Source: Deltaproteobacteria bacterium (GTDB lineage: Bacteria > Desulfobacterota > Desulfuromonadia > Geobacterales > Pseudopelobacteraceae). From it: a stretch of 43,308 nucleotides of DNA. Location: the NCBI GenBank assembly GCA_021778115.1, contig JAJYCS010000012.1, forward strand, positions 1 through 43,308, read 5' to 3'. Positions 1-19,111 of this stretch are shown here, piece after piece. The translations under genes and the position numbers were made by a program. Under the pieces are notes generated by a model. The model was given only the letters and a program-made list of their open reading frames with translations, ran no database searches and was not told where the DNA came from. Position 1 is the stretch's first letter, and each line of letters opens with the position of its first letter.

Positions 1-863
1 GTAAAGGCGCACCCCATGACGGCACCCATCTGTCCGCCCATGCCGAGTCCCATGCCGACACCGACCCCGGCCGCCGCCAAGCCGCCGGGGTTGTTGGCCG
101 CATCCTTGATGGCGCTGGCGGCCTCGTACTGGGTATACATCTCCATATTGCCGATGGCCCGCATGGCCCCTGCCTTATCGATGGCCTGTTCCACCTCTTC
201 CGGCAACCCCACGTCCTGCACCTGGATCTCGGTCAGGGCAAGCCCCATCTCTGCAAAGGCCGGCGCAATCCGTTCCTTGAGCATCTCACCAAGGGTATAG
301 ACCTTGCTCTCCAGGTCGATGACCGGGACCTTGAGCTCCGGCATCACCTCCTTGATCCGCAGGCCGATCTTCCCTTTCAGGTTGTCCTCGATCTCCTCGG
401 TGGTGAACTCCCCATCGGTGCCTGCGATCTCCCGGATAAAGAGTGCCGGGTCCTGCATCCTGATGGCGTAGATCCCAAAGGCGGTCACCCGCACAGCGCC
501 GAACTCGGGGTCCCGCATGGTGCAGGGGCCGGGGGTGCCCCACTTCAGGTTGGTGAACTGGCGGGTGGAGCAGAAGTAGACCTCGGCCTTGAAGGGGGAT
601 TCAAACCCGTATTTCCACCCCTTGAGGGTGGCCAGGATCGGCAGGTTCTGGGTGGTCAGCGCAAAGGTGCCGGGTCTGAAGATGTCGGCGATCTGCCCTT
701 CGTTGACGAAGACCGCCATCTGCCCTTCCCGCACCACCAGTCTGGCGCCGTGTTTGATCTCGTTGTTGTAGCGGGGGAAGCGGTAGATCAGGGTGTCGTT
801 GCTGTCGTCCAGCCACTGGACGATATCTATCAGTTCGCCCTTTAGTTTGTCCCAGAGTGCCAT
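1..863 (-). CDS. SPFH-domain protein (virion-core-protein-like / YdjI-type), 3' end missing
   Basis: The frame is open from an ATG at 863 to the window edge (about 287 codons), preceded by a good ribosome site (AGGAGG). It begins MALWDKLKGELIDIVQWLDD and continues with a band-7/stomatin-like SPFH domain over roughly residues 25-240 (VREGQMAVFVNEGQI, then the FEAEV-like strand, then a helical stretch with KERIAPAFAEMGLALTEIQV). The last visible residues are Gly/Met-rich (GVGVGMGLGMGGQMG), the usual linker before a C-terminal zinc-ribbon segment in this family; that segment would lie outside the window. Family members are thought to scaffold membranes, but the biochemical role is unknown. No partner gene is visible. 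The family is recognised with good confidence; the function is not. Confidence 0.88.
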   Translation of the reverse strand, partial: MALWDKLKGELIDIVQWLDDSNDTLIYRFPRYNNEIKHGARLVVREGQMAVFVNEGQIADIFRPGTFALTTQNLPILATLKGWKYGFESPFKAEVYFCSTRQFTNLKWGTPGPCTMRDPEFGAVRVTAFGIYAIRMQDPALFIREIAGTDGEFTTEEIEDNLKGKIGLRIKEVMPELKVPVIDLESKVYTLGEMLKERIAPAFAEMGLALTEIQVQDVGLPEEVEQAIDKAGAMRAIGNMEMYTQYEAASAIKDAANNPGGLAAAGVGVGMGLGMGGQMGAVMGCAF

Positions 864-946
864 GACCAAACCTCCTGACAGGAACTATTGTTGAGTTTTC
901 CAGTGTAGCCAGTTTTGGAAAACTTGCAACTAGTGAAAAGCCTCTG

Positions 947-1036
947 TCAGCGACCCTTGGTGCGTACCCCCAGCACCGGCGGAATCTGGTGCAGGTCATG
1001 GAACAGCTCGATCCCCTTTGGTTCGGCTGACGTCAT
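947..1036 (-). CDS. possible 29-residue ORF or gene remnant
   Basis: On the minus strand an ATG at 1036 opens 29 codons (starting MTSAEPKGIELFHDLHQIPP) ending in TGA at 947-949. Codon choice resembles real genes here, and it fills the middle of the 254-base gap between vapC and the SPFH gene. There is no convincing ribosome site, and the frame stays open only about ten codons further upstream before a TAG. I do not recognise it. It could be a tiny gene, the tail of a decayed gene, or chance. Confidence 0.25.
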   Translation of the reverse strand: MTSAEPKGIELFHDLHQIPPVLGVRTKGR

Positions 1037-1117
1037 GGGTGATATTCCGTGGTAAGGGATATTTGTCTATGTGCTAGGAACGGTGGAATGCTGTAACGCT
1101 GACGGTAGAACAGGAGG

Positions 1118-1528
1118 CTAGAGCGACTCAAGCCCCAGTTTCTTTAAGGCCGATTTGAACTTCTGGTCAAAGGTAACAACGGTGGCCCCTTTGAATGACT
1201 GTGCAGTGGCGGCGAGCAAGGCATCACCAAAATCAGTGATTCTTGCGGGCCACAGCGAGAGCACAGAATTGAAATCAGTCGGTTGATGCAGTGCAACGCC
1301 CGGCATGGCAATAAAATCCCGGACCATGGCGTTGACGGTCTCTTTGGGGGCTCCGTAGACCCTGTCCATAACGAAGACAAATTCAGTCAGCACGAACTGA
1401 TGACAGATAAGGGTGCATTTCAGGCGGGCAGCTGCCTCAAACAGGGGGACGACCATTGCCTGCTGATCAGGATTCCTTTCCGTGACAAACGAGATGAGTG
1501 CGTTGGTGTCAATGATGTATTTTTTCAT
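1118..1528 (-). CDS. vapC: VapC-type PIN-domain ribonuclease toxin
   Basis: This 136-residue protein has the PIN-domain acidic set: D7 in YIIDTN near the N-terminus, E49 in VLTEF, D99 and D102 in TDFGDALLAA, and D121 in TFDQKF. These bind Mg2+ in VapC endoribonucleases, which usually cut tRNA or rRNA and arrest growth. The start ATG overlaps the end of the upstream antitoxin gene by four bases (ATGA), so the two are almost certainly translated together from one message. All catalytic residues are present, so it looks functional. The RNA target cannot be told from sequence. It lies downstream of the SNF2 helicase gene on the same strand. Confidence 0.92.
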   Translation of the reverse strand: MKKYIIDTNALISFVTERNPDQQAMVVPLFEAAARLKCTLICHQFVLTEFVFVMDRVYGAPKETVNAMVRDFIAMPGVALHQPTDFNSVLSLWPARITDFGDALLAATAQSFKGATVVTFDQKFKSALKKLGLESL

Positions 1529-1758
1529 CGATATTGTTCCATTCGTTTGTCCCGTGAAGCCTGAATATCAGAGGCGATATCGCCTGTACCGGTCTTTATG
1601 CTTCCCCGGTAGGCAAGAAAGTTGCTATGAACCGGTCTGACAACTGCCTTTCCCTTTTCAACCACCCACTCCAGCGCATCGTTGATTGAGATACCCAACT
1701 GTTCCCGTACAGCTTTGGGGATGGTGGTCTGGTATTTTACGGTTACGGTTGAGTTCAT
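1525..1758 (-). CDS. vapB: VapB-type AbrB/SpoVT swapped-hairpin antitoxin
   Basis: The 77-residue protein starting MNSTVTVKYQTTIPKAVREQ carries an AbrB/MazE/SpoVT swapped-hairpin DNA-binding fold over residues 1-45 (TTIPKAVREQLGI ... ALEWVVEKGKAVV), followed by a flexible tail that would wrap the toxin. The ATG at 1758 is preferred because it begins the conserved fold and follows GGGAGAG; an in-frame ATG at 1869 would add 37 residues without family character. The stop overlaps the vapC start by four bases. The protein should neutralise VapC and, with it, repress its own promoter, which should lie in the 117 bases between the SNF2 stop and this start. Confidence 0.9.
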   Translation of the reverse strand: MNSTVTVKYQTTIPKAVREQLGISINDALEWVVEKGKAVVRPVHSNFLAYRGSIKTGTGDIASDIQASRDKRMEQYR

Positions 1759-1875
1759 TGATTGGCTCTCCCTCAAGTTCCTTACAAAATGATGATAGTG
1801 TAAGGAGGGTGTGCTGTCAACGTAGTTAACGAGTTTGCCGGATAATGACGCCAACTGCTTAAAATGCATAGCAGC

Positions 1876-4800
1876 TTACCCCGCCTCCCGTAGCAGCTCC
1901 ATCAGGTCATCGACAGAGACCCGTGCCGCTGTTTCAGCCCCCTCCAGGAGCGAGTTGGCCAGATCTCGTTTCTGCCCATGCAGGGCCACGATCTTTTCTT
2001 CAATGGTGCCTGCCGCCACCAGGCGGTAGACGGTGACCGGCCGTTGTTGGCCGATCCGGTGGGCGCGATCGGAGGCCTGATCTTCCACCGCCGGGTTCCA
2101 CCACGGATCAACATGGATCACGTAATCGGCTGCAGTCAGGTTAAGGCCGGTGCCGCCCGCTTTCAGGCTGATCAGAAACAGCTCCCCCTGGCCGGACTGG
2201 AAGGCGGCTACCCGTTCCTGCCGTTCCTTTTGCGGGGTGGAGCCGTCCAGGTACTGGTAGCTGATCCCCCCACTGTCCAGACGGTTTCGCAGGATGCTTA
2301 GATGATCCACAAACTGTGAAAAGACCAGGGCGCGGTGGCCGTTGTCCCGCAGCTCGGCCACGATCTCAGAGAATGCTGCCAGCTTGGCGCTGCCGATGCC
2401 ACAGTCCGGCATGACCAGCTCCGGGTTGCAGCAGGCCCGGCGCAGCCGCATGATCTCGGCCAGGATCCGGATCTGGCGTTCGCCGGGTTGCTGCCCTTCA
2501 CTTGCCGCAAGTTTTTCCAGCGCGCTGCGGCGCAGCGCCTCATAAAAGGCTGCCTCTTCACCGGACAGCTCGACCCGTTGCACGATGTCGGTGCGGGGGG
2601 GCAGCTCTTCCAGTACCTGACTCTTGGTGCGACGCAGGATAAAGGGGCGGATCAGCTTTTTCAACAGGCTGCGGGCGGTCTTGTCCTGATTCCGCTCAAT
2701 TGGGGTGCCAAACCGCTCCGTAAAGGTCTGATGGGAACCCAATAGGCCGGGATTGAGAAAACGGAACAGGTTCCAGAGTTCATCCAGCCGGTTTTCCACC
2801 GGGGTGCCAGTGGTGGTGATCCTGAAACCGGCCTTTAGCTGCATGGCGGCCTGTGAACGTTTGGTGGTCATGTTCTTGATCGCCTGGGCCTCGTCCAGCA
2901 CCACGGTTTCCCAGGTAACACCGGTCAGCAGCTCCGCCTCCTGCTGGAACAGCGTGTAGCTGCAGATGGTCAGATCAAACGGCTGCAGCGAGGCGATGAA
3001 CGCGGTCCGGTTGCCGGGGCCAAACATGCGGGGATTCAGGGTGGGGGCAAAACGGCGGGCCTCGCTTTCCCAGTTGAGGCAGACCGAGGTGGGGGCCAGC
3101 ACCAGGGCTGGTCCGTTCGGGGCGCGGGTCAGCAGCAGGGCCAACGCCTGGACGGTCTTGCCCAGCCCCATATCGTCGGCCAGACAGGCGCCCACCCCCC
3201 AATGGGCCAGACGGCAGAGCCAGGCAAATCCCTCCTGCTGATAATCACGCAGTTCTGCCTGCAGGGTAGGGGGGATGAGCGGTTGCAGCTCCTGGGCAGC
3301 CTTGAACCGCTCCAACAGCTGCTTCCAGCCTTTGTCCCCCTTGACGGCTGCAGCGCCGGAGAGCGCCTCGTCCAGCAGCGGGGCAGCAAGCTGATGGATC
3401 CGCTGCTCACTCTTGCCATGCCGTTCTGTTATCCGCTGCAGATCATCCAGCCTCTTTCTGAACTCCTCGGTCAGGGCGATAAACTCTCCGCTTTCCAGCT
3501 GAATGAAACGTCCTCGCTGTTCTCTGGTCAGTTCAAGCAGTTGCTTAAGCGTCAGGACTTCATCCTCGCTGATGCTCAGCTCTCCTTCGATGCTGAGCCA
3601 TTCCCTGCCGGATGATACGTTTGCCTTGAGTCTGTTCCAGGAAGCATGTCCCTTTAACTTGAAACGCTCCCCCTCCGGCCAGTGCAGCACAAAGGCGTCA
3701 GGCGAAGTGGTGATCGCCTCCTGCAATTCTTCAAGCAGTTCCAGTGTGCCGTCAGGGTTTTCGATCCGCCAGATCTCATGTTCCTGTTCGTACAGGTCAA
3801 AGGTGCTGCACTGCTGCAGCAGCAGGTGATAATTCTGTTTTTCTTCCGGCAGATTTCGGCGGCAGTGCAGTTTTTTGCCACCCACCTCTGCAATAACGGT
3901 GCTGCCCCCCTGGCCAGGCGGGAATTGCGGTCCCTGCTCCCCAAAGGGGCTGACCCGTAACGCTGCCTGTATGCCATCGCCGGAGGGGCGCAGCAGGATA
4001 TTCAGGCGGCTGTCGGTCTCTACGCTAATCGCCTCGTCGCTGACGGTGACAAGATCGGACTGCACCATCATATGGGGGGATACGGCGGTCACTGCCGCTG
4101 TCACCTGCTGTTCTGCAGACTGGGGAATGGTCAGGCCGTTGCCAATGATGCCGGCAATCCTTTTCTGTTCGGTGGTGGGGCCATACACCAGCAGGCGGTT
4201 CTCGCTTTCCCACCAGTAAAACGGCTGACTGTCAGCATCCAGTGCCGGTGTCATGGAAAGAGTCAGCTGAGTTCCCTTTTTCTTGACTGAAAGAATAAAT
4301 TCACCTTTGGCGATGGTCATCGGCTCGTTGTGGTGGTTAAATAACAGCGGATGTCCAATCAGCGCCTGAATTGTCTTGATGGTGTTAAAATCATAGCTGG
4401 TCTGGGTGTAGTAACCGTAGCTCCTCTCTTTACGGATGCAGGCCGCCGCTGCCAGATCCTGCTTGGTAAGGAACGGCAGCTTGCCCGGTTCTTCAGCCAT
4501 CCGCTTGAGCGCTACATTTCGTCCACGGCTCCAGCCTTTGGAGGACAGTTTCTGCTCAAGCGGCTGGATCTGTGCAAAATTGGTGCGGATGTCGCCGTCA
4601 ATCAGCCAGATCAGCCGCGAATCGTTCTCTTTTGTTGTGGCAGGTGTGCTCTCATCACTCTTCCCCAGCTTCAGCAGCGCGTTGAGGGAACGCTCCCAGT
4701 CCTGCTGATCATCCCGGGCAAGCGTGGTAAGGCTGGTCATCTGAAGCTCTTTGGCTATCTTTTCAGCCCAGCCGGCGTCGGGAGTGCCGATCGGGTCAAT

Positions 4801-6024
4801 GGCTCGACTGGTCAGCAGCAGTTCTGCCGCCAGCCAGCGCAGCCCTGTGCCGCGAGCTTTCAGCGCATAGCTGCGTAAGGTTTTCAACTGTTCCTGCGGT
4901 ACCGGCAGTTGCTGCCACCAGCCGCACAGGCAGCGGATCAGCTGGCTGAGCGGAGTCAGTTCATGGGTCTGGCGGCAGGCCTCTTTCAAGGTTTCGGCTG
5001 ACCTGGTGTTGCCGCTACGGGCCTCTGCCGTCCGCAGGATAAAGCTGTAGTCGATCTTGTCGGCATATTCATCCCGTTTTAATCCTGTCTCGGCCAGCTC
5101 GGCAGCCTGTTTCAACTGCTGCGGCAACCCTCCGGCAAGCAGGGCAAGGCAATGCATCAGCCCAAGTATGCCCGGCAATACTATCTTGCGTTTGCCGGTC
5201 TGTTTTTTGAGGATAACCAGTTCCTGCGCAAAACAGCTGATCGCCTGGTCGACCTTGCCCTGCAGCAGGGCAAGCATGCCGCGATGTCCCTGATACGGCG
5301 CCATTTTCAGGCTGGTAAGGGCTGATTCCAGCTCGTTAAAACGGCCTTGCAGCAGCAGATAGACCGGGTAGTTGTAGCAGAGATCAGAGGTGAGTTTGCC
5401 AGCCTCTTTCAGGTGATCCAGCAGGGCAAACACCGAAGTTGGTTTCAATTTGGTGAAGGACTCTGTCAGCAGCGGGTTGACCAGGGTTGCCAGTAGTAAG
5501 GGCGGCAGATCGGCTACCCAGTCTATGTCCAGGGGTTCAGGAAAGATGACGGCCATGATTGAGGCATCATGACTGTAGTAACGCCGAAGAACAGTGAGCG
5601 CCGTGATTACCTTGTCCGGCTTGTGCATGAAATAGCCAAGCCTGAGAAACTGCAGGGCATGTTCCTGGCTTCGGTAGTAATCGTTTCCCATCTGTTTGGC
5701 AACGAAGGAGCAGTACTCGCTAAAGCGGCCTTCAAGCTGGCACTGGCGGATCAGCGGAAACTGAATCTCCCGTTGGCAGCGAAAATTGCCATGCTCCTCT
5801 ACCGTCAGCCCCAGCCGTCTGGTTTTGGCAAAAAAATCCGCCAACTCTTTGACGTTTATGGCCCGTGTTGGAGTAAAACGGACACGCAGCAATGAAAGCA
5901 TGGCTACCAAAGGAGTTTTTGCAATTGGTACAGCAAAAAAAGCCAGCAGTTGGAGCGTCTGCCGTTCCGGCAGGGGAAGAGAACGACAGGCGGAGAGTAG
6001 TTCTTCGGTTTTGGTTTTGGACAT
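1876..6024 (-). CDS. large SNF2-family DNA-dependent ATPase (HepA/RapA superfamily)
   Basis: This is a 1382-residue protein. The last ~480 residues form a complete SNF2 motor: Walker A in DDMGLGKTVQALALLLTR near residues 950-965, the DEAQAIKN box near 1043, GTPVENRLDELW, and a helicase C domain ending in SDRAHRIGQQRPVTVYRLV near 1320. Residues 1 to about 600 are leucine-rich and helical, perhaps a TPR-like solenoid, and match nothing I recognise; the middle is the substrate-side region common in bacterial SNF2 proteins. Such proteins translocate on double-stranded DNA and remodel bound proteins (RNA polymerase in RapA). It is not obviously part of a DISARM or restriction locus, since no methylase or nuclease is adjacent. 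The ribosome site GGAG lies between the ATG and a terminator-like hairpin. Confidence 0.9.
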   Translation of the reverse strand: MSKTKTEELLSACRSLPLPERQTLQLLAFFAVPIAKTPLVAMLSLLRVRFTPTRAINVKELADFFAKTRRLGLTVEEHGNFRCQREIQFPLIRQCQLEGRFSEYCSFVAKQMGNDYYRSQEHALQFLRLGYFMHKPDKVITALTVLRRYYSHDASIMAVIFPEPLDIDWVADLPPLLLATLVNPLLTESFTKLKPTSVFALLDHLKEAGKLTSDLCYNYPVYLLLQGRFNELESALTSLKMAPYQGHRGMLALLQGKVDQAISCFAQELVILKKQTGKRKIVLPGILGLMHCLALLAGGLPQQLKQAAELAETGLKRDEYADKIDYSFILRTAEARSGNTRSAETLKEACRQTHELTPLSQLIRCLCGWWQQLPVPQEQLKTLRSYALKARGTGLRWLAAELLLTSRAIDPIGTPDAGWAEKIAKELQMTSLTTLARDDQQDWERSLNALLKLGKSDESTPATTKENDSRLIWLIDGDIRTNFAQIQPLEQKLSSKGWSRGRNVALKRMAEEPGKLPFLTKQDLAAAACIRKERSYGYYTQTSYDFNTIKTIQALIGHPLLFNHHNEPMTIAKGEFILSVKKKGTQLTLSMTPALDADSQPFYWWESENRLLVYGPTTEQKRIAGIIGNGLTIPQSAEQQVTAAVTAVSPHMMVQSDLVTVSDEAISVETDSRLNILLRPSGDGIQAALRVSPFGEQGPQFPPGQGGSTVIAEVGGKKLHCRRNLPEEKQNYHLLLQQCSTFDLYEQEHEIWRIENPDGTLELLEELQEAITTSPDAFVLHWPEGERFKLKGHASWNRLKANVSSGREWLSIEGELSISEDEVLTLKQLLELTREQRGRFIQLESGEFIALTEEFRKRLDDLQRITERHGKSEQRIHQLAAPLLDEALSGAAAVKGDKGWKQLLERFKAAQELQPLIPPTLQAELRDYQQEGFAWLCRLAHWGVGACLADDMGLGKTVQALALLLTRAPNGPALVLAPTSVCLNWESEARRFAPTLNPRMFGPGNRTAFIASLQPFDLTICSYTLFQQEAELLTGVTWETVVLDEAQAIKNMTTKRSQAAMQLKAGFRITTTGTPVENRLDELWNLFRFLNPGLLGSHQTFTERFGTPIERNQDKTARSLLKKLIRPFILRRTKSQVLEELPPRTDIVQRVELSGEEAAFYEALRRSALEKLAASEGQQPGERQIRILAEIMRLRRACCNPELVMPDCGIGSAKLAAFSEIVAELRDNGHRALVFSQFVDHLSILRNRLDSGGISYQYLDGSTPQKERQERVAAFQSGQGELFLISLKAGGTGLNLTAADYVIHVDPWWNPAVEDQASDRAHRIGQQRPVTVYRLVAAGTIEEKIVALHGQKRDLANSLLEGAETAARVSVDDLMELLREAG

Positions 6025-6037
6025 GGGGGAACTCCAG

Positions 6038-6068
6038 AAAAAACCGACGAGGAGTGCTCCTCGCCGGT
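6038..6068 (-). terminator. intrinsic terminator-like hairpin upstream of the SNF2 gene
   Basis: Read on the minus strand, AACCGGCGAGGA pairs with TCCTCGTCGGTT (one G-T pair) around a four-base loop and is followed by six T. It lies downstream of the acyl-CoA ligase gene, beyond the REP element, and only 13 bases before the SNF2 start codon, so it may end the ligase message or attenuate the helicase message. Confidence 0.75.
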
Positions 6069-6139
6069 TGTCTGTTTCTATCGCTATCCGTTTATTACCT
6101 ATCCTGATTAGCGCTCAAATTCAGCAAAAACAGAAAAGT

Positions 6140-6278
6140 CCCCTCTCCCTCTGGGAGAGGGTTAGGGTGAGGGCGGGCGCCGTCTGCCCGGGCTCCTGCG
6201 GTTTCCCCTCATCCGGCCTTCGGCCACCTTCTCCCAGAGGGAGAAGGGATATTCTGAATTTCAGTTCTTATCAGGTTA
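6140..6278. repeat. REP/BIME-type palindromic repeat (copy A)
   Basis: Two inverted units face each other. The left unit reads CCCCTCTCCCTCTGGGAGAG followed by GGTTAGGGTGAGGG. The right unit, from 6206, reads CCCTCATCC, then GGCCTTCGGCC, then ACCTTCTCCCAGAGGGAGAA. This is the classic form of RAYT-mobilised REP pairs. The right unit and 27 bases beyond it recur at 20858-20929 with about 92% identity (five mismatches and one gap over 72 positions, counted by eye). The element ends at the stop codon of the acyl-CoA ligase gene. Confidence 0.88.
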
Positions 6279-6279
6279 C

Positions 6280-7929
6280 CTATTCTGATCCTTCCAGGTG
6301 CAGTTCCTTGATCGCCATCTCCCGCAGCTTGAACTTCTGGATTTTGCCGGAGGCGGTCATCGGGTAGCCGTCCACGAACTTGACGTATTTGGGGATCTTG
6401 TAGTTGGCGATCTTGCCCCGGCAGTACTCCCGCACCTCCTCCTCGGTCATGGTCTCCCCTTTTTTTAGGATCACCGCCGCCATCACCTGTTCGCCGTATT
6501 TGCGGTCCGGCACGCCGTAGACCTGGATGTCGGAGATCTTCGGGTGGGTGTAGAGATACTCCTCGATCTCCTTAGGATAGATGTTCTCACCCCCCCGGAT
6601 GATCATCTGCTTGATCCGGCCGGTGATCTTGCAGTAGCCGTTCTCGTCCATGATCGCCAGGTCGCCGGTATGGAGCCAGCCATCGGCGTCGATCACCTTG
6701 GCGGTCTCCTCCGGCATCTTGTAATAGCCCTTCATCACCATGTAGCCACGGGCGCAGAGCTCCCCCTGCTTGCCGGGCGGCAGTGTCTCGCCGGTTTCGA
6801 TATCGATGATCTTGACCTCTGCCCCCGGCAGGGCCCGGCCCACCGTGGCGACCCGCAACTCAAGCGGATCGTCGGTGCGGCTCTGGGTGATGCCGGGAGA
6901 GGACTCGGTCTGACCGAACACGATGGTGATGTCGGTCATGTGCATATCCTTCACCACCCGTTTCATCACCTCGATCGGGCAGACCGAGCCGGCCATGATG
7001 CCGGTCCGCAGGGTGGAGAGGTCGAAGGTCGGGAACGCGGGATGCTCCAGCTCGGCGATGAACATGGTGGGTACCCCGTGCACCGCCGTGCACCGCTCCG
7101 CCGCAATGGTCTGCAGCACCTTCAGTGGATCGAAGATCTCCACCGGCACCATGGCGGTACCGTGGGTGACCGAGGCCATCACCGCCAGGACCGAGCCGAA
7201 ACAGTGGAAGAACGGCACCGGGATGCAGAGCCGGTCGTTCTCGGTGAATTTCATGCATTCGCCGATCTGAAAGCCATTGTTCACCAGGTTACGGCTGGTC
7301 AGCATGACCCCCTTGGGGAAACCGGTGGTGCCGGAGGTGTACTGCATGTTGATGGTGTCGTCACAGCCGATGGAACCCTCCACGGCGGCCAGCTCGGCGT
7401 CGGAGATCTGGTCGCCCAGTTCGGCGATCCGGGCGAAGTTGAGCATCCCGGCCGGGGTGTCGTCACCGATGAAGATCACATGCTTCAGGAACGGCAGTTT
7501 GGGACAGCCCAGGGCGCCGAACGGCGCCGTGGCCAGCTCCGGCGCCACCTCACGCAGGGTGGCCACATAGTCGGTATCCTTCCAGGAGTTGACCATGAAC
7601 AGGGTGGTGGCGTCGGACTGTTCGAGGATATACTCTAGCTCGGCCGATTTGTAGGCGGTGTTGACCGTGACCAGCACCGCGCCGATCTTGGCGCTGGCAA
7701 ACATGAGGATCACCCATTCGGGCACGTTGTAGGCCCAGATGGCGATATGGTCCCCCTTTTTGATCCCCAGCCCGAGCAGTCCCTTTGCCACCCGGCGGCA
7801 GAGCTGGTTCAGCTCCTCATAGCGGTAGCGTAGCTTCCGCTCCGGATAGACCAGGGCGTCATGGTCGGGAAAACGGGTGGCGATCTCGTCCAACAGGCCG
7901 CCGATGGTGAGGGTGATCAGGTCTGACAT
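6280..7929 (-). CDS. AMP-forming acyl-CoA synthetase (fatty-acid-CoA ligase-like)
   Basis: A 549-residue member of the ANL adenylating superfamily, close to its normal length. It has the P-loop [11 protein letters not shown] at residues 197-207, the A5 motif GQTESSP, the hinge [37 protein letters not shown], and the C-terminal catalytic lysine in [14 protein letters not shown]. It should activate a carboxylic acid to acyl-AMP and then to acyl-CoA in the cytoplasm. Overall similarity to medium/long-chain FadD-like enzymes suggests a fatty or aromatic acid, but the substrate cannot be read reliably. The start has a strong ribosome site (AAAGGAGG). It is divergent from the glutamate synthase operon and appears monocistronic, with a REP element directly after its stop. 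Confidence 0.9.
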
Positions 7930-8007
7930 GGTCGCCTCCTTTGGGGGGTGCCGGATAGTGGTTGATGGTGTGTACTTTTTTTACTCATGTAAGTTGTTGC
8001 ATAACGT

Positions 8008-8033
8008 CTGCCCGGTGGCTGTTGCCAGGGCAG
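8008..8033. promoter_or_regulatory. inverted repeat, possible enhancer-binding-protein site
   Basis: CTGCCC (8008-8013) and GGGCAG (8028-8033) form a dyad with a 14-base gap, centred about 150 bases upstream of the transcription start expected from the sigma-54 promoter at 8147. That distance suits an NtrC-family activator site. It does not match the NtrC consensus closely, so the identity of any activator is open. The rest of the 310-base divergent region holds no other gene I can support. Confidence 0.35.
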
Positions 8034-8146
8034 GAAACGGCGATTGCCGGCTGCTGCAGGGGTAGGGAGTGCACTATAAACAAGTTGCTACCGTGATAAC
8101 AAGCAGAAAAACGGATCGGCAGCGCTGTCGGTGGCGTTTCCATGGC

Positions 8147-8163
8147 TTGGCACGACGTTTGCT
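8147..8163 (+). promoter_or_regulatory. sigma-54 (RpoN) promoter of the glutamate synthase operon
   Basis: TTGGCACGACGTTTGCT matches the sigma-54 consensus TTGGCACG-N4-TTGCT at every fixed position. The invariant GG (8149-8150) and GC (8161-8162) are separated by exactly ten bases. Transcription would start near 8174, leaving a leader of about 65 bases before the GTG start at 8240. Confidence 0.85.
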
Positions 8164-8239
8164 AACTTTCTGTGCCTGTTTCCGTCAGGCAGCGGTAGTG
8201 AACGGCAGCGGAAATCCCGAGATCCGGGGGAGGTTGAAC

Positions 8240-9769
8240 GTGCTTTACAAATCGGTCAATGAGTCATTTAACGAGTTTATCGTCGAGCGCAGCGATCCCA
8301 AATGCATCCGCTGCAAGGTCTGTGAGCGGCAGTGCGCCTACGAGGTCCATCGCTATCTCGAGGAGGCCGACTGCCTAGTGGAGGACAGCTCACTCTGCAT
8401 CGGCTGCCGCCGCTGCTCGGCCCTCTGTCCCACCGGCGCCATTACCATCACCAAGAACCCTGAGGCGTTCAAGGATAACGCCTCCTGGTCCACCTCCCAT
8501 ATCCGCAACCTGTACGCCCAGGCCGACAGCGGCGGTATCCTGCTGGCGGCCATGGGCAACCCGCAGCCGTACCGGATCTACTGGGACCATCTGCTGCTGG
8601 ACGCCTCGCAGGTGACCAACCCCTCCATTGACCCGCTGCGGGAGCCGATGGAGCTGCGCACCTACCTGGGTAAGAAGCCTGATCAGCTGGAGGTGGTGAC
8701 CAACCCCCAGACCGGCAAGCCGGAGCTGAAGACCCAGCTCACCCCCCAGGTCAAGATGGAGTATCCGTTCATCTTCTCCGCCATGAGCTACGGGGCGCTG
8801 AACTTAAACGCCCATCGTGCCATGGCCATGGCCGCCGCCGAGTTGGGTACCCTCTACAATACCGGTGAGGGTGGTCTGCACAAAGATCTCTATCACTACG
8901 GCGGCAATGTGATGGTGCAGGTGGCCTCGGGTCGTTTCGGGGTCTCCGAGCAGTACCTGAATGCCGGAGTGGCGATTGAGATCAAGATCGGCCAGGGGGC
9001 CAAGCCCGGCATCGGCGGTCACCTGCCGGGCGAAAAGGTCAATCCGGCCATCTCCGAGACCCGGATGATCCCGGAGGGTTCCGATGCCATCTCGCCGGCG
9101 CCGCACCATGACATCTACTCCATCGAGGACCTGCGTCAGTTGATCTACGCCCTGAAAGAGGCCACCAACTACACCAAGCCGGTCTCGGTCAAGATCGCCG
9201 CCGTGCACCATATCGCTGCCATCGCCTCCGGTGTTGCCCGGGCCGGTGCCGATATCATCACCATCGACGGCTTTCGTGGGGGGACCGGCGCGGCGCCGCA
9301 GGTGATTCGCGACAACGTCGGTATCCCGATGGAGCTTGCCCTGGCCGCGGTGGACGCCCGTCTGCGGGATGAAGGGATCCGCAATCAGGTCTCCATCGTG
9401 GTGGGTGGCGGGGTGCGTAACTCCGGCGACGCCATCAAGGCGATAGCCCTGGGGGCCGATGCCATCAATATGGGGACCTCCACGCTGCTGGCCCTGGGCT
9501 GCACCCTCTGCCAGCGCTGCTACACCGGCAAGTGCCCCTGGGGGATCACCACCAACAATCCGTACCTGGCCAAGCGTCTGAACCCGGAGGTGGGGGCCGA
9601 GCGGCTGGTGAATCTGGTCAAGGCCTGGAGTCATGAGATACAGGAGATCCTGGGCGGCATGGGGTTAAACGCCCTGGAATCACTGCGGGGGAACCGCTAC
9701 AAGCTGCGGGCGGTCAACCTCACCGAGAAAGAGATGTATCTGCTGGGCGTGATCCCGGCTGGAGAATAG
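8240..9769 (+). CDS. glutamate synthase, FMN-binding synthase subunit with N-terminal ferredoxin domain (archaeal-type GltB2)
   Basis: The 509-residue protein begins at a GTG seven bases after GGGGGAGG; the frame is open further upstream, but that stretch contains the sigma-54 promoter and lacks family similarity. Residues 20-70 hold two [4Fe-4S] motifs (C22-C25-C28-C32 and C53-C56-C59-C63). The rest is the FMN-binding glutamate synthase barrel, with SAMSYGALNLNAHRAMAMAA, GQGAKPGIGGHLPG, DGFRGGTGAAP and a [3Fe-4S]-type cysteine cluster LGCTLCQRCYTGKC. It would aminate 2-oxoglutarate to glutamate using ammonia channelled from the glutaminase subunit at 11590. It is the first gene of a five-gene operon; the next begins two bases after its stop. 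Confidence 0.93.
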   Translation: MLYKSVNESFNEFIVERSDPKCIRCKVCERQCAYEVHRYLEEADCLVEDSSLCIGCRRCSALCPTGAITITKNPEAFKDNASWSTSHIRNLYAQADSGGILLAAMGNPQPYRIYWDHLLLDASQVTNPSIDPLREPMELRTYLGKKPDQLEVVTNPQTGKPELKTQLTPQVKMEYPFIFSAMSYGALNLNAHRAMAMAAAELGTLYNTGEGGLHKDLYHYGGNVMVQVASGRFGVSEQYLNAGVAIEIKIGQGAKPGIGGHLPGEKVNPAISETRMIPEGSDAISPAPHHDIYSIEDLRQLIYALKEATNYTKPVSVKIAAVHHIAAIASGVARAGADIITIDGFRGGTGAAPQVIRDNVGIPMELALAAVDARLRDEGIRNQVSIVVGGGVRNSGDAIKAIALGADAINMGTSTLLALGCTLCQRCYTGKCPWGITTNNPYLAKRLNPEVGAERLVNLVKAWSHEIQEILGGMGLNALESLRGNRYKLRAVNLTEKEMYLLGVIPAGE

Positions 9770-9771
9770 CT

Positions 9772-10215
9772 ATGAAGAGAATCTATGCCATTGAAGAGGC
9801 CTGTATCGGCTGCCACCTGTGCGAGGTGGGCTGCATTACCGAACACTCGCTTACCAAGGATCCGGTCAAGGCGTTCCTGCACGAGGCGGAGCGCCCCATT
9901 GCCCGTTGCACCGTGGAGGAGCTGGACGGCGGGGTGCTCTCCATCTCCACCACCTGCCGGCACTGTGATGCCCCTGACTGCCTGCAGACCTGCATCTCCG
10001 GTGCCATCCAGAAACAGGCCGACGGCCGGGTGCTGATCGACACCGCGAAATGCGTCGGCTGCTGGTCCTGTGTGATGGCCTGCCCCTTTGGGGCGGTGCA
10101 GCGCAACCTGAAGAAGAAAAAGGCCAACAAGTGCGACCTCTGTCCGGACCGTGACCTCCCAGCCTGCGTCTCGGCCTGTCCGAACCGGGCACTGGTCTTC
10201 AGGGAGGGGAACTGA
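9772..10215 (+). CDS. multi-cluster [4Fe-4S] ferredoxin subunit (HycB/DmsB-like)
   Basis: The 147-residue protein starts MKRIYAIEEACIGCHLCEVG, with C11-C14-C17-C21 as the first motif. Further motifs follow: CRHCDAPDCLQTC, CVGCWSCVMACPFGA and CDLCPDRDLPACVSACPN. That is sixteen cysteines placed for four [4Fe-4S] clusters, the layout of electron-transfer subunits in molybdoenzymes and in archaeal/Thermotoga-type glutamate synthases. It should wire the flavoprotein encoded next to the FMN subunit. It starts two bases after the upstream stop and ends one base before the next start, so it is tightly co-translated. Confidence 0.92.
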   Translation: MKRIYAIEEACIGCHLCEVGCITEHSLTKDPVKAFLHEAERPIARCTVEELDGGVLSISTTCRHCDAPDCLQTCISGAIQKQADGRVLIDTAKCVGCWSCVMACPFGAVQRNLKKKKANKCDLCPDRDLPACVSACPNRALVFREGN

Positions 10216-10216
10216 T

Positions 10217-11533
10217 ATGAACTACGTCATCGTCGGTAACTCCGTGGCTGCCGTGGGGGCGATCCGGGCCATCCGAGCCCAGGATCAGCAGGGGACCATC
10301 ACCGTCGTCTCCCGCGAACGGCATACCGCCTACGGCCGGCCGTTGATCTCCTATCTGCTGGGGGGGGTGATCACCGAAAAAGGGATGCCCTACCTGCCGG
10401 AGAACTTTTATGACCAGCAGCGGGTCAATCTGCTCTTGGCCACCGAGGTGGCCTCGGTGGATACCGTGGCCAAAAGGGTGCTGTTTACCACCGGTGAGTC
10501 GCTCCCCTACGACAAGCTGTTGCTGGCCACCGGCGGTGACCCGTTCCTTCCCCCCATCGAGGGGATGGCCGACCGTGACCGGGTCTACACCTTCACCACC
10601 TGGGACGATGCTGCCAAGCTGAAGGCGGTCTCGGCTGATATCCAGCGGGCCGTGGTGATCGGCGGCGGCTTGATCGGCCTGAAGGCGGCCGAGGGTCTGA
10701 ACCTGCTGAACAAGAGCGTCACGGTGATCGAACTGGCCGATCGGGTGCTGTCGTCGGCCTTTGACCGGCCGGCTGGCAAGATCGTGGCCCGTAAGATGCG
10801 CGCCAACGGTATCGACGTGATCACCGAGGATACGGTGGTGCGGATCGAAGGGGAGGGGGCGACCATCACCGGTGTGACCCTGAAGTCCGGCGATTTCATC
10901 CCGTGCGACACCGTGGTGGTGGCGATCGGGGTCCGTCCTGCCGCAGGTTTTCTGAAGGGAAGCGGCGTGGAGGTCAACCGCGGCATCGTGGTGGACGACC
11001 GGATGCAGAGCTCGGTGCCGGATATCTTTGCCGCCGGCGATGTGGCCGAGGCCCGCGACTTCTTCAGCGATCAGAAGAATCCGATGCCGATCTGGCCCGA
11101 CGCCTATATCCAGGGCGACATCGCCGGCACCGCCATGGCGGGCGCTGAGAAGGGCTACGAGGGGGGGCTGGCCATGAACTCCATCGAGTTCTTCAAGGTC
11201 TCCACCATCTCCATGGGGGTCACCAATCCCCGTGACCCGGTTGAATACGACATCCTGACCTTCCTCGACAGCGACAACTATCAGTACCGCAAGATCGTCC
11301 TGGACAAGGCGGGCCATCTGGTCGGCGCCGTGTTAGTGGGGAACGTTGACCGGGCTGGCATCTTCGCGGGCCTGATCCGTAACCGGGTAGAGGTGACGCC
11401 GTTCCGCGAACAGCTGCTCACGCCTGAGTTCGGCTTCATCCATCTCCCCCCCGCCATCCGCAAGGAACGGTTCGGCCAGCGCGGCTATTCCTGGCCCCAG
11501 CCCTGTTTTGACGGAAATGGCGGCGGACACTGA
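10217..11533 (+). CDS. FAD/NAD(P)-dependent oxidoreductase subunit of the glutamate synthase
   Basis: A 438-residue pyridine-nucleotide-disulfide oxidoreductase-family protein. It has an FAD-binding N-terminus (YVIVGNSVAAVGAIRAIR), a central NAD(P)-binding motif (AVVIGGGLIGLKAAEGL, about residues 145-160), and the second FAD motif IFAAGDVAEARD (about residue 275). The family includes NADH oxidases and NADH-rubredoxin reductases. No redox-active CxxxxC pair is seen at the usual place, as expected for a plain NAD(P)H dehydrogenase. The ATG at 10217 is chosen over an upstream in-frame start because it begins the dinucleotide fold and sits just after the ferredoxin stop. Its likely job is to pass NAD(P)H electrons to the ferredoxin subunit. 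Confidence 0.88.
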   Translation: MNYVIVGNSVAAVGAIRAIRAQDQQGTITVVSRERHTAYGRPLISYLLGGVITEKGMPYLPENFYDQQRVNLLLATEVASVDTVAKRVLFTTGESLPYDKLLLATGGDPFLPPIEGMADRDRVYTFTTWDDAAKLKAVSADIQRAVVIGGGLIGLKAAEGLNLLNKSVTVIELADRVLSSAFDRPAGKIVARKMRANGIDVITEDTVVRIEGEGATITGVTLKSGDFIPCDTVVVAIGVRPAAGFLKGSGVEVNRGIVVDDRMQSSVPDIFAAGDVAEARDFFSDQKNPMPIWPDAYIQGDIAGTAMAGAEKGYEGGLAMNSIEFFKVSTISMGVTNPRDPVEYDILTFLDSDNYQYRKIVLDKAGHLVGAVLVGNVDRAGIFAGLIRNRVEVTPFREQLLTPEFGFIHLPPAIRKERFGQRGYSWPQPCFDGNGGGH

Positions 11534-11589
11534 TCGTAACCGATTTCAGGGCGGGCAACCGGACTCGTTGCTGCGACAAAGGAACCACG

Positions 11590-12696
11590 ATGACACATCA
11601 CAACCAGTTGTTTTACGAAAAAGAGATATCCAACTGCGGTCTGACCGGCTTTATCTCCAAAAAAGGGCGTAGAATCGGCGGTGAGACCATCATCAAGTCC
11701 ATTACCCTGATGCACGACCGGGGTAACGGCCTGGGGGGCGGCTTCGGCGCCTACGGGATCTATCCCGACTATGCCGACTATTACGCGTTCCACCTGATGT
11801 ACGAGAACGGCATGGCACAGCAGCTGACCGAGGAGTACCTGGAGGCCAACTTCCGTGTCGAGCAGCAGGAGGAGATACCGACCCGCCGTATCCGGGCCAT
11901 CGCCAACCCGCCGGCCTTTAAGCGCTATTTCATCACGCCGCTCAAAAACGACGAATACCTGGAGGCGGTGGACTACCAGGGGCTGACTGAAGAGGACGTC
12001 ATCGTCCGTCACGTGATGGCCATCAACCATGAGATCGAAGGGGCCTTCGTGGTTTCTTCCGGTAAGAACATGGGGGCCTTCAAGGGGGTCGGCTTCCCTG
12101 AAGAGATCGCCGAATTCTTCCGCCTTGAAGAGTACGAAGGGCATATCTGGACCGCCCACAACCGGTTTCCCACCAACACCCCCGGCTGGTGGGGCGGGGC
12201 CCATCCCTTTACGCTTCTGGACTGGTCTATCGTCCATAACGGCGAGATATCCTCCTACGGCATCAACAAGCGCTATCTGGAGATGTACGGCTACCTCTGC
12301 ACCATGTTGACCGACACCGAGGTGGTGGCCTACACCCTGGATCTGTTGATCCGCAAGCACGGCCTGCCGGCCGACCTGGCCTGCACCGCCCTGGCACCGC
12401 CGTTCTGGAAGCTGATCGATCAGCTGCCGGAAGAGGAGCGTCGCCTGTACACCGCGGTCCGTCAGGTCTACGGTAGCGGACTCTTGAACGGTCCCTTTGC
12501 CATCCTCTTTGCCAGCAACAAGGGGCTGATCGGCTTGAATGACCGGGTCAAACTGCGGCCGTTGGTCTGCGCCGAGCATGAGGATATGGTCTACATGGCC
12601 TCCGAAGAGGCGGCCATCCGCGAGATCTGCCCCAACCCCAGCCGGATCTGGGCGCCGCGCGGCGGTGAACCGGTGATTGCGCTGATGGAGAACTGA
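11590..12696 (+). CDS. glutamate synthase glutaminase subunit (class II amidotransferase, archaeal-type GltB1)
   Basis: A 368-residue class II glutamine amidotransferase. The nucleophile motif is NCGLTGFISKKGRRIGGE, with the cysteine at residue 16. In this fold the cysteine must be the N-terminal residue of the mature enzyme, so a 15-residue propeptide has to be removed, as in E. coli GltB; no in-frame start exists just before the cysteine. Other supports are IWTAHNRFPTN with GWWGGAHPF, and SIVHNGEISSYGIN, the glutamine-binding and active-site segments. It releases ammonia from glutamine for the FMN subunit. A 56-base gap separates it from the flavoprotein gene, and the next gene starts one base after its stop. 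Confidence 0.92.
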   Translation: MTHHNQLFYEKEISNCGLTGFISKKGRRIGGETIIKSITLMHDRGNGLGGGFGAYGIYPDYADYYAFHLMYENGMAQQLTEEYLEANFRVEQQEEIPTRRIRAIANPPAFKRYFITPLKNDEYLEAVDYQGLTEEDVIVRHVMAINHEIEGAFVVSSGKNMGAFKGVGFPEEIAEFFRLEEYEGHIWTAHNRFPTNTPGWWGGAHPFTLLDWSIVHNGEISSYGINKRYLEMYGYLCTMLTDTEVVAYTLDLLIRKHGLPADLACTALAPPFWKLIDQLPEEERRLYTAVRQVYGSGLLNGPFAILFASNKGLIGLNDRVKLRPLVCAEHEDMVYMASEEAAIREICPNPSRIWAPRGGEPVIALMEN

Positions 12697-12697
12697 T

Positions 12698-13444
12698 ATG
12701 AAGATAGACGCCCAAGGATTGTACTACAAAGAGCTGAATCAGAAGATTCGCGAGGCCGTGGCCGGCGGTGCCACGACCATTGAGCTTGAGCATGTCAATG
12801 GTCAGTATTTTATCGCCGACGGCATCAACAAGCCGGTCACCATCACCATAAGGGGTGTGCCGGGCAATGACCTGGCGGCCTTCATGAACGGCGCGACGGT
12901 GGTGGTGAACGAAAACGCCCAGGACAATATCGGCAATACCATGAACGCCGGCAAGGTCGTGGTGCATGGCCATGCCGGAGACGTGCTGGGCTACGGCATG
13001 CGTGGGGGGCGGCTCCATATCAGGAAGGATGTGGGGTATCGGGTCGGCATCCATATGAAGTCGTACCAGGAGAACAAGCCGGTGGTGATCGCTGGCGGCA
13101 AGGCTGGGGATTTTTTCGGCGAATACATGGCCGGCGGGGTGCTGGTGCTCTTGGGGATGTTCACCGATGACCCGGCCAAGCCGAAGCACGGCTATCTGTT
13201 CGGTACCGGCATGCATGGCGGCGTGATCTACGTGCGTGGCGGGGTGGACGTATCCCGGCTGGCAAAAGAGGTGGGTGCCTACCCGTTGGAGGCTGCCGAC
13301 CAGGTCGAACTTGAAGGGTTGCTTGCCGACTATTGCAAGGATTTTGGCCTTAACCTGCAGGAGGTCATGTCCGAGCCGTTCGTCAAGGTACTCCCCAAGA
13401 GTAAACGCCCCTATGGGAACATGTACTGCCCCATGCCAAAATAA
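12698..13444 (+). CDS. glutamate synthase GXGXG-domain subunit (archaeal-type GltB3)
   Basis: A 248-residue right-handed beta-helix protein with the repeated glycine pattern of the C-terminal domain of glutamate synthase large subunits (GNTMNAGKVVVHGHAGDVLG, YGMRGGRLHIRKDVGYRVG, VIAGGKAGDFFGEYMAGG). In one-piece GltB this domain is structural and links the ammonia tunnel to the synthase barrel. Here, as in archaea and Thermotoga, it is a separate polypeptide. It is the last gene of the operon and is followed within 35 bases by a strong terminator. Confidence 0.92.
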   Translation: MKIDAQGLYYKELNQKIREAVAGGATTIELEHVNGQYFIADGINKPVTITIRGVPGNDLAAFMNGATVVVNENAQDNIGNTMNAGKVVVHGHAGDVLGYGMRGGRLHIRKDVGYRVGIHMKSYQENKPVVIAGGKAGDFFGEYMAGGVLVLLGMFTDDPAKPKHGYLFGTGMHGGVIYVRGGVDVSRLAKEVGAYPLEAADQVELEGLLADYCKDFGLNLQEVMSEPFVKVLPKSKRPYGNMYCPMPK

Positions 13445-13478
13445 TTCACCTCCACACGTTTCCTTTCCCCTGTATGAG

Positions 13479-13507
13479 AAGGGCGGCAGCTATGCCGCCC
13501 TTTTTTT
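13479..13507 (+). terminator. intrinsic terminator of the glutamate synthase operon
   Basis: GGGCGGCAGCTATGCCGCCC forms a strong GC stem with a short loop and is followed directly by seven T. Confidence 0.92.
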
Positions 13508-13520
13508 GGGCAGGCCCATC

Positions 13521-13569
13521 CCCGCTCGTCACGCTGCATCTTGTGTATCGCTTCACGAGCGGGTACTAT
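13521..13569 (+). promoter_or_regulatory. candidate sigma-70 promoter embedded in an inverted repeat
   Basis: TTGTGT (13541-13546) and TACTAT (13564-13569) are spaced by 17 bases, 31 bases upstream of the lipoprotein start. CCCGCTCGT (13521-13529) and ACGAGCGGG (13555-13563) are perfect 9-base inverted arms; the right arm ends exactly at the -10 box and the left lies just above the -35. That placement suits a repressor operator, or else a stem in DNA. The regulator is unknown. Confidence 0.45.
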
Positions 13570-13599
13570 GACAGCTCAAACTGCACGAGGAGGCTCTCC

Positions 13600-14217
13600 A
13601 TGCCTTACCGACTGAGTGTGGCAAAGCTGTTTATCGCCGGCGTGATCGCTCTTCTGCTGTTGTCCGGATGCGGCACACCCGCCACCACCCCGACCGGTCT
13701 GACCGTTACCTCGACCAACCCCATCACTTTGAGTTGGAACGCCGTATCGAGCGCCACCAGCTATACGCTGTACCGTGGGACCTCATCGGGGGATATCAGC
13801 GCCAAAACCGTCCTGGCTGCCACGATCGCCGGCACAACCTATACCGACACCTCGGCACTGACCGGCACGACCTATTACTACCAGGTGCGGGCCGTGAACG
13901 GGGACGGTGCATCCGGGGGATCGAACGAAGTCGAGGCGACCGCAAGCGGCGGGAGTTTCAGCCTGGTGGGGAATATCTCCGGCGCCACGGTTCAGCTTAC
14001 CTGGTCGGCCATCACCGGCAGCAGCGGGTACAACCTGTACCGCGGCATCTCCCCCATCACCACGAGCATGACCAAGATACGCGCAAATCTGGCAGCGACC
14101 ACCTATACGGACAGCGGTCTCACCCAGGGGACAACCTACTACTATCAGGTTGCCGCCGTTGACGCAGCCGGGACGGAGATCCAGCTCTCATCCGTCAGTG
14201 CGGGTCTCACTCCGTAG
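13600..14217 (+). CDS. lipoprotein with two fibronectin type III repeats
   Basis: The 205-residue protein starts MPYRLSVAKLFIAGVIALLL with a lipobox LLSGC; Cys24 should be lipidated after signal peptidase II cleavage. Residues ~32-115 and ~120-205 are two tandem FnIII-like beta domains with shared signatures (ITLSWNAVSSATSYTLYRGT versus VQLTWSAITGSSGYNLYRGI, and TTYYYQV in both). There is no enzymatic motif. It is expected to be anchored in the outer membrane or facing the periplasm, probably binding a polymer or a partner protein. The ATG is chosen for its AGGAGG ribosome site and because it starts the signal peptide. Terminators flank it, so it is probably transcribed alone. Confidence 0.85.
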   Translation: MPYRLSVAKLFIAGVIALLLLSGCGTPATTPTGLTVTSTNPITLSWNAVSSATSYTLYRGTSSGDISAKTVLAATIAGTTYTDTSALTGTTYYYQVRAVNGDGASGGSNEVEATASGGSFSLVGNISGATVQLTWSAITGSSGYNLYRGISPITTSMTKIRANLAATTYTDSGLTQGTTYYYQVAAVDAAGTEIQLSSVSAGLTP

Positions 14218-14256
14218 GCGACCAGACGACGACATACGGTTCCAGATCCTGTAAAG

Positions 14257-14282
14257 GGGCGGCTGCAATGCCGCCTTTTTTT
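14257..14282 (+). terminator. intrinsic terminator after the FnIII lipoprotein gene
   Basis: GGGCGGC and GCCGCC pair around a six-base loop, followed by seven T. It closely resembles the terminator at 13479. Confidence 0.88.
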
Positions 14283-14344
14283 CGTTTTGCATCCGCATCC
14301 GTAGTCCCGTTTCGAGGTGGGAACGGTGTTGAAACGGCCGCTCA

Positions 14345-14491
14345 CGCTGTAACTGTTTTCACTTAAATAAAACAATGGTATCTGATATTTTGAATATCTC
14401 TATTTTTACCTGTTTTTACGACTTTGATTTTTATAACTAACTGAAATTATATAAATATATTTTTTGTCTGAAAATTGTATCAATATTTTTA
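14345..14491. other. strongly AT-rich intergenic tract
   Basis: About 150 bases upstream of the IclR gene are strikingly AT-rich (runs such as AATTATATAAATATATTTTT), in contrast to the GC-rich surroundings. No ORF is supported here. It could be a curved or nucleoid-protein-binding upstream region, and it contains weak promoter-like matches such as TTGATT and TATATA spaced by 18 bases. Confidence 0.55.
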
Positions 14492-14554
14492 TTGACGCGT
14501 TTTAGAACGACGTGATAAAAAATAACCAGATGAAATGGCGTTATTTTTAGAACG
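14492..14554 (+). promoter_or_regulatory. candidate promoter and operator of the iclR gene
   Basis: TTGACG (14492-14497) and ATAAAA (14515-14520) are 17 bases apart. AAAAAATAAC (14517-14526) and GTTATTTTTA (14540-14549) form a 9-base dyad around 13 bases, covering the -10 and start region. A direct repeat TTTTAGAACG occurs at 14500-14509 and again at 14545-14554. This is suitable for autorepression by the IclR protein encoded 35 bases downstream; that link is inference. Confidence 0.45.
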
Positions 14555-14588
14555 GCGCACTGCATTTCGAATCGTTAAGGGGCGCGGC

Positions 14589-15365
14589 ATGGAGCGGGAC
14601 AAGGGCTCATACTCGGTACAGGCGGTCCTCAAGGCCTTTGAGCTGCTCGAACAGCTGGCTGCCGACGATGCGGGCGCCTCGTTGCCGGCCCTTGCCAAGC
14701 GGCTGGACCTCTCCCGCAACAAGGTATTCCGGCTCCTGGCCACCCTGGAGGCCAAGGGGCTGGTGCAGCGGGATGAGGTGGGCGGGTTTTATCGCCTTGG
14801 TCTGGGGGCCTTTGAGATGTCCCAGCATATCCTGAAGGGGGCCAGTCTGATCCGTCTGGCCCATCCGGTGATGGAGGAGCTGGCCCGCAGGCATGATGAG
14901 GCGATCTACATCACGGTGATGAATAACGACGAGGTCCTGTTCCTCGACATGGTCGATTCATTTCAGCAGATAAAGACTGTACCTCTGGTGGGGCAGCGGT
15001 TTCCGTTCTTTACCAACGCGGCCGGCAAGGCGATGAAGGCCATGGCCTCCCTTGATTTTCTCGATCGGATGGCCAAGCGCAGGGGAAGGAAAGAGCCGTT
15101 CCCCGACATGCAGAAGCTTGAGGCCGAGCTGCGGGAGATCCGTCAGAAGGGGGTTGCGGTGGATGTGGGGGGCCTGGGTGAGGGGATCTGCGCCGTGGCC
15201 GTGGCCATCCGCGATTACGCCGGCAAGGTGGTGGGGGCGTTGACGCTGCTTGCCCCCTCCTTCCGGATGCTGCAGGAACGTCTCGAACAGGAGATCATCC
15301 CCTCCATGCGGGAGGGGGCCGACCTTTTGTCCATGAAATTCGGTTACATGAAGATACCGGCTTGA
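14589..15365 (+). CDS. IclR-family transcriptional regulator
   Basis: A 258-residue protein with an N-terminal winged helix-turn-helix (YSVQAVLKAFELLEQLA, ASLPALAKRLDLSRNKVFRL, residues ~8-70) and a C-terminal IclR effector domain (RLAHPVMEELARRHDEAIYI, GKAMKAMASL, GLGEGICAVAVAIRDYAGKV). The ATG at 14589 is chosen because it starts the HTH domain and follows AAGGGG. The regulator sits directly upstream of the DUF485-symporter pair in the same direction, so it probably controls acetate or other small-carboxylate uptake and senses a related metabolite. IclR members can repress or activate, and I cannot tell which here. Confidence 0.9.
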   Translation: MERDKGSYSVQAVLKAFELLEQLAADDAGASLPALAKRLDLSRNKVFRLLATLEAKGLVQRDEVGGFYRLGLGAFEMSQHILKGASLIRLAHPVMEELARRHDEAIYITVMNNDEVLFLDMVDSFQQIKTVPLVGQRFPFFTNAAGKAMKAMASLDFLDRMAKRRGRKEPFPDMQKLEAELREIRQKGVAVDVGGLGEGICAVAVAIRDYAGKVVGALTLLAPSFRMLQERLEQEIIPSMREGADLLSMKFGYMKIPA

Positions 15366-15464
15366 CAGGGGATAGACAGAGCGACGAAAGGAGGGATGCA
15401 CGAGGCGGTTTAGGTTTGGCGTTGGTGGTACCATTCCCACATTTCATGGAAAGGAGTAACTATC

Positions 15465-15773
15465 ATGGCGGAAAAGACGTATGACTGGGCGGCGATAGCC
15501 AAGAACCCCAAGTTTGTCGAACTGCACCACAAGAAGACGGCCTTCCTGTTCGGCTGGTGGATATTCTCCACTGTCTACTACTTCCTGCTGCCGATCGGGG
15601 CGGCCTATGCGCCGGGTCTCTTCAAGATTCAGGTGTTGGGGCATGTCAACTTCGGCTATCTGTTTGCGTTGTCGCAGTTCTTTGTCTCCTGGGGCATCGC
15701 GATCTACTATGCCCATGTGGCCAACAAGGATTTCGACCGGCTGACCAGGGAACTGGTCAGTGAACTGCACTAG
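15465..15773 (+). CDS. DUF485 small membrane protein, symporter partner (YjcH-like)
   Basis: The 102-residue protein has two predicted transmembrane helices (residues ~26-47 and ~62-84), a basic cytoplasmic start (HHKKTAF) and a charged tail. The DUF485 family almost always precedes an ActP-type sodium:solute symporter gene, as here, with 11 bases between the two. It is thought to help fold or regulate the symporter, but the mechanism is not established. It has a strong ribosome site (AAGGAG). Confidence 0.88.
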   Translation: MAEKTYDWAAIAKNPKFVELHHKKTAFLFGWWIFSTVYYFLLPIGAAYAPGLFKIQVLGHVNFGYLFALSQFFVSWGIAIYYAHVANKDFDRLTRELVSELH

Positions 15774-15784
15774 GAGGTGATTCC

Positions 15785-17773: not shown

Positions 17774-17807
17774 CCCTTTTCAATCCCATGCGGTGTGGTA
17801 TACATCT

Positions 17808-17836
17808 GGGGGAGGCCGAGGCCTCCCCCTTTTTTA
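17808..17836 (+). terminator. intrinsic terminator after the symporter gene
   Basis: GGGGGAGGC and GCCTCCCCC form a perfect 9-bp stem with a four-base loop, followed by six or more T. It separates the symporter from the DUF294 gene 20 bases later, so the latter depends on read-through or a promoter near the hairpin. Confidence 0.9.
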
Positions 17837-17856
17837 CGAATCACTGAGGAGCGGGT

Positions 17857-19068: not shown

Positions 19069-19071
19069 CGC

Positions 19072-19100: not shown

Positions 19101-19111
19101 ACTCCCCTCAC

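Follow-up and report, generated by a model that had tools for sequence, protein, structure and literature searches.

The window analyzed here, a stretch of 43,308 nucleotides that makes up an entire contig (C16) of a deltaproteobacterial genome (G000), carries a SNF2-family helicase gene whose start codon lies directly behind a terminator-like hairpin. The gene order is acyl-CoA ligase, predicted terminator, SNF2, AbrB-like antitoxin, PIN toxin and SPFH gene (Table 1). The nearest named relatives of the helicase in the collection are those of Geobacter sp. UBA6802 (73%) and Trichlorobacter lovleyi (57%). A strong promoter-like site (TTGACA-17-TATCAT, 11/12) occurs on the minus strand at 1792-1820, within the listed antitoxin ORF; its location suggests that the true start of the antitoxin may be a later ATG (MNSTVTV...).

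Table 1. Coordinates of the features at the ligase-SNF2 locus, as positions of the window.
Feature	Coordinates	Strand	Basis
Spacer: probable 3'-end remnant of a MerR gene (PKGIELFHDLHQIPPVLG), followed by the SPFH 5' flank	870-1117	minus	DNA match and protein level by eye
AbrB/MazE-like antitoxin and PIN-domain toxin genes (VapBC-like), adjoining SNF2	1118-1869	minus	Pfam, gene order
SNF2-family helicase gene, 1382 codons	1876-6024	minus	Pfam SNF2-rel_dom 1.5e-63, Helicase_C 4.5e-26
GGAG, likely Shine-Dalgarno sequence of SNF2	6032-6035	minus	7 nt before ATG, spacer TTCCCCC
T tract of six bases, the first two of which also belong to the 12-bp stem	6038-6043	minus	read directly
Stem-loop, predicted terminator, 12 bp, loop GCAC	6042-6069	minus	read from sequence, terminator scan, fold
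8-bp target duplication TTACCTAT, first copy	6095-6102		read directly, empty-site comparison
MITE/REP-like element, 173 bp, imperfect terminal inverted repeats CCTGAT...ATCAGG	6103-6275	minus	repeat comparison
Second copy of the 8-bp target duplication TTACCTAT, which overlaps the ligase stop codon	6276-6283		read directly, empty-site comparison
Acyl-CoA ligase gene, 549 codons, TAG stop at 6280-6282	6280-7929	minus	Pfam

The original prediction described a 12-bp stem and six T, the last of them 13 bases before the SNF2 ATG (6024-6022, minus strand), with GGAG in the interval. Direct reading confirms this arrangement, and only one coordinate had to be corrected, as the stem starts at 6069 rather than 6068. 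Read on the minus strand, the 5' arm AACCGGCGAGGA (6069-6058) and the 3' arm TCCTCGTCGGTT (6053-6042) enclose the loop GCAC (6057-6054). The 12 pairs, 7 of them G-C, represent the highest pair count among the 23 terminator-like sites listed for positions 1-20000. The hairpin alone has a predicted folding energy of -19.8 kcal/mol, and a 71-nt region around it reaches -24.8 kcal/mol (z = -3.96), a value matched by none of 200 shuffled sequences. The element thereby combines the stable G+C-rich stem-loop and the directly following T tract of an intrinsic terminator, and from these features we infer that it terminates transcription in the cell. The 31-nt hairpin pattern is found once in the window's own genome, as is its 24-nt core when up to three mismatches are allowed; with a single copy, a dispersed repeat is ruled out.

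Between the ligase and the hairpin lies a 173-bp element with the hallmarks of a miniature transposable element (MITE), namely terminal inverted repeats, a target duplication and several copies. Elsewhere in the genome there are two partial copies and one that is full-length. An 87% copy at G000:C107:19323-19496 is flanked on both sides by the 8-bp duplication AAGGGGTT, and full or partial relatives occur in 11 of 15 genus genomes, including the window's own. Because of this element, the hairpin now lies 210 nt behind the ligase stop codon. Subtracting the element and one copy of the duplication leaves 29 nt, close to the 30-41 nt found in four relatives. The hairpin is not itself a part of the MITE, which ends at 6103, and four other hairpins directly follow the ligase where no MITE is present. 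Elsewhere in the window, a Y1_Tnp (IS200-like) ORF at 20583-20951 on the plus strand, which we take to resemble a fragment of a REP-associated transposase, overlaps with its 3' end a 70-bp piece of this same MITE-like element (20858-20928).

The DNA downstream of the ligase was read in 11 genus genomes, including the window's own, and 15 were scanned with the hairpin pattern. A hairpin with a T tract follows the ligase stop codon at 31 nt in G003 and G012, at 41 nt in G006 and at about 30 nt in G010, and in none of these four genomes is SNF2 adjacent to the ligase. The 12-4-12 layout with its T tract is the same in G003, G006 and G012 and looser in G010. G006 and the window also have 21 bases in front of the hairpin in common (CGATAGAAACAGACAACCGGC). 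The 31-nt pattern occurs in 4 of the 15 genomes (G000, G003, G006 and G012), once in each and always just behind the ligase; since it was written from these very sequences, it is informative only for uniqueness and place. The automatic terminator scan allows no G-T pairs and for this reason left the G003 and G012 hairpins unflagged; they were seen by eye and confirmed by alignment and pattern. The homologous hairpin, placed shortly behind the stop codon, is thus conserved in 5 of the 11 regions read, the window's included, and is absent from the other six (G001, G004, G005, G008, G009 and G011). A terminator-like hairpin does occur in G004, about 145 nt downstream of the ligase stop, but it is unrelated. 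The 11 regions leave out those behind the more distant ligase matches of G013 (51% identity) and G014 (64%), and no ligase match was found in G002 or G007 at E <= 1e-150.

In the alignment of the five hairpins, 96.7% of the 60 cells pair and 3 of the 12 pairs have changed on both sides, while a control with sliding partners gives 38-65% pairing. Of 500 shuffled alignments, 15 equal the observed pairing and covariation and 69 the observed number of pair types; taken alone, the evidence from covariation is therefore moderate. These data bear on one alternative, in which the hairpin would be a functionless inverted repeat that arose by chance. Terminator-like sites in the first 20 kb exceed the shuffle rate only moderately (23 vs a mean of 16.2, sd 3.7), which favors such an accident, but position, layout, T tract and paired changes are conserved in four other genomes, and the probability of a functionless repeat appears close to negligible.

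The six genomes that lack the hairpin speak against simple inheritance, and its distribution does not follow ligase similarity. The ligases most similar to that of the window belong to G005 (90%), G009 (87%) and G011 (85%), all of which lack the hairpin, so that a loss or a local recombination has to be assumed; either a loss in this sub-lineage or a local exchange would explain the absence. Over the last 150-base bin of the ligase, DNA identity to the window is 89-91% for G003, G006, G010 and G012 and 83-88% for G005, G009 and G011, the alignments of the latter three ending 13 bases early. Inspection of the ligase DNA by eye, in 150-base bins, found no clear recombination break.

Genomic neighborhoods point to a rearrangement on the SNF2 side. 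Domains were scanned on the G006 proteins and on the window's SPFH protein, and the remaining neighboring genes were assigned by clustering. The SPFH gene is the first ORF of at least 100 aa behind the ligase in G009 and G011. In G005 and G006, ligase and SPFH are separated by further genes, which include an ABC1-kinase gene and a MerR gene. The 248 bp that precede SPFH in the window contain PKGIELFHDLHQIPPVLG, which by eye resembles the MerR C-terminus of G005, G006 and G012; at the DNA level, the match to the 3' end of the G005 MerR gene is weak (E 0.017). A MerR remnant in front of SPFH is, on these sequence matches, fairly well supported. G014 (locus L153, 2544-7471) contains SNF2 together with the same VapBC-like pair as window positions 1118-6024, in a different neighborhood. 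Similarity to the region upstream of the G014 SNF2 gene (CGGAGCCCTCCGATG) starts, by eye, at about GGAG, which would place the edge of the shared segment at the T tract. This fits a replacement of the ABC1-MerR part by a SNF2-VapBC segment with its left edge at that point.

The hairpin is absent before both of the nearest SNF2 orthologues found, those of G014 and G001, as judged by eye, and its pattern is absent from both genomes. In G001, a SNF2 gene (58% identical) also lies behind the ligase, with a spacer of about 275 bp and with neither the toxin-antitoxin pair nor the hairpin. Its presence there implies that the ligase-SNF2 adjacency may be older than a simple history would have it, or may have arisen twice. 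In the G001 spacer (L152, about 2857-3130), an inverted-repeat element (GTAACCACTCAGC...GCTGAGTAGTTAC, by eye) occurs along with further repeats that look dispersed, which is suggestive of a hot spot for insertions.

Two observations, homologues behind the ligase where SNF2 is missing and the absence of the hairpin before the two nearest SNF2 orthologues, lead to the best explanation of the locus. The hairpin is most likely the inherited intrinsic (Rho-independent) terminator of the acyl-CoA ligase, behind which SNF2 would have come to lie later; we place the probability of this reading at roughly 0.87. That the structure might be only the ligase terminator had been offered as one option in the original prediction, and the four genus members with a homologous hairpin but no adjacent SNF2 lend it their support. 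In the order of events that we infer, the lineage would have possessed the ligase terminator before SNF2 was present at this position. A SNF2 and VapBC-like segment would then have landed directly behind the T tract, bringing the SNF2 ribosome site but no recognizable promoter, and would have taken the place of the genes found between the ligase and SPFH in relatives. The MITE-like element would have inserted at the ligase stop codon, shifting the terminator from 29 to 210 nt. SNF2 would be expressed by read-through or from an unrecognized promoter, and the hairpin in front of it seems to be there by accident, through the way the genes came together, and not as a designed switch.

Two alternative explanations concern the transcription of SNF2. 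The statement that the stretch between the hairpin and the ATG leaves no room for a normal promoter is right for that stretch. A promoter of SNF2's own could nevertheless overlap the hairpin DNA or depend on another sigma factor, making the hairpin irrelevant for SNF2. The helicase ORF is intact, and its comparison with G014 (dN 0.18, dS 0.95) indicates that SNF2 has been under purifying selection since the two genes diverged, which suggests that the gene is probably expressed; the estimate, however, includes time before the rearrangement. Against an own promoter, the best sigma-70 score in 6025-6340 is 7, a value equaled in 235 of 300 shuffled sequences, so that no match above chance was found by a scan restricted to sigma-70 type sites whose -10 box has A as its second and T as its sixth base. 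The regions upstream of SNF2 in G014 and G001 gave similarly unremarkable results, their best scores being reached by 129 and 74 of 300 mononucleotide shuffles, respectively. A TTGACA-17-TATTGC sequence noticed by eye upstream of the G014 SNF2 gene was not counted, as it fails the -10 rule of the scan. Overall, a separate promoter seems unlikely, though it deserves serious consideration, and it is compatible with the hairpin serving as the ligase terminator.

The second proposal of the original prediction, that the hairpin is an attenuator keeping the helicase low or conditional, found no support. It supposes that an inherited terminator was co-opted, so that most transcripts coming from the ligase, or from a promoter within the MITE or the spacer, end at the hairpin and pass it only under certain conditions, making SNF2 conditional. 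The arrangement itself favors the idea, since no transcript started further upstream can reach SNF2 without passing the hairpin and the leader shows no outstanding sigma-70 match, and premature termination in 5' UTRs is reported to be widespread in E. coli (PMC7815308). The elements expected of a regulated leader were nevertheless missing from the predictions, which gave no antiterminator, leader peptide or ligand-binding domain: in the minimum-energy fold of the transcript as it stands ahead of the 3' arm, the 5' arm finds no strong partner elsewhere, and no leader ORF of at least 6 codons reaches the hairpin. At the gathering threshold, a partial 16S rRNA and a tRNA are the only Rfam matches in the window; at E values up to 1, three hits (one miRNA and two sRNA families) fall in 5980-6310, all below their gathering scores. 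Conservation argues in the same direction, as the hairpin is missing before the SNF2 orthologues in G014 and G001 and present where SNF2 is absent. Co-option as an attenuator is therefore highly improbable. The hairpin may passively lower SNF2 expression.

A variant of the terminator reading goes one step further. The accidentally inherited ligase terminator could now be the effective control of a promoterless SNF2-VapBC unit, with SNF2 expressed only from ligase read-through, coupled to ligase transcription or to termination factors, and with further tuning by the MITE. Such coupling appears doubtful at best.

The abutment of a terminator and a start codon is uncommon but not singular. A 443-kb sample, consisting of the window and 20 stretches of 20 kb from G006, contains 82 strong terminators. 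Five of them, the present one among them, end no more than 25 nt from a possible start codon of a same-strand ORF of at least 150 aa, which rules out uniqueness. A Pfam scan covered three of the other four ORFs, all but L167; in two of these it gave domains above the cut-off (DUF294 and glycosyltransferase) and in the third only a cytochrome match below the cut-off. The SNF2-ligase locus is ordinary in itself. Its interest lies in how a gene that lands behind a neighbor's terminator can mimic an attenuator, and in how the two readings can be told apart by comparing what follows the upstream gene in relatives that lack the downstream gene.

Set beside known systems, the hairpin resembles attenuators and terminator-type riboswitch leaders in one respect, the position of a terminator before the ribosome site of a gene on the same strand. 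Unlike these leaders, it is not conserved before the two nearest SNF2 orthologues, and the searches found neither an antiterminator nor a leader peptide nor a match to a known leader family. From a typical intrinsic terminator it departs in its present distance of 210 nt from the stop codon and in a T tract that abuts the ribosome site of the next gene, whereas its G+C-rich 12-bp stem, 4-nt loop and immediately following T tract are those of this class. The neighboring 173-bp element, for its part, resembles MITEs and REP/REPIN sequences in its imperfect terminal repeats, its internal CCCTCTCCC-type palindromes, its 8-bp direct duplication and its multiple relatives.
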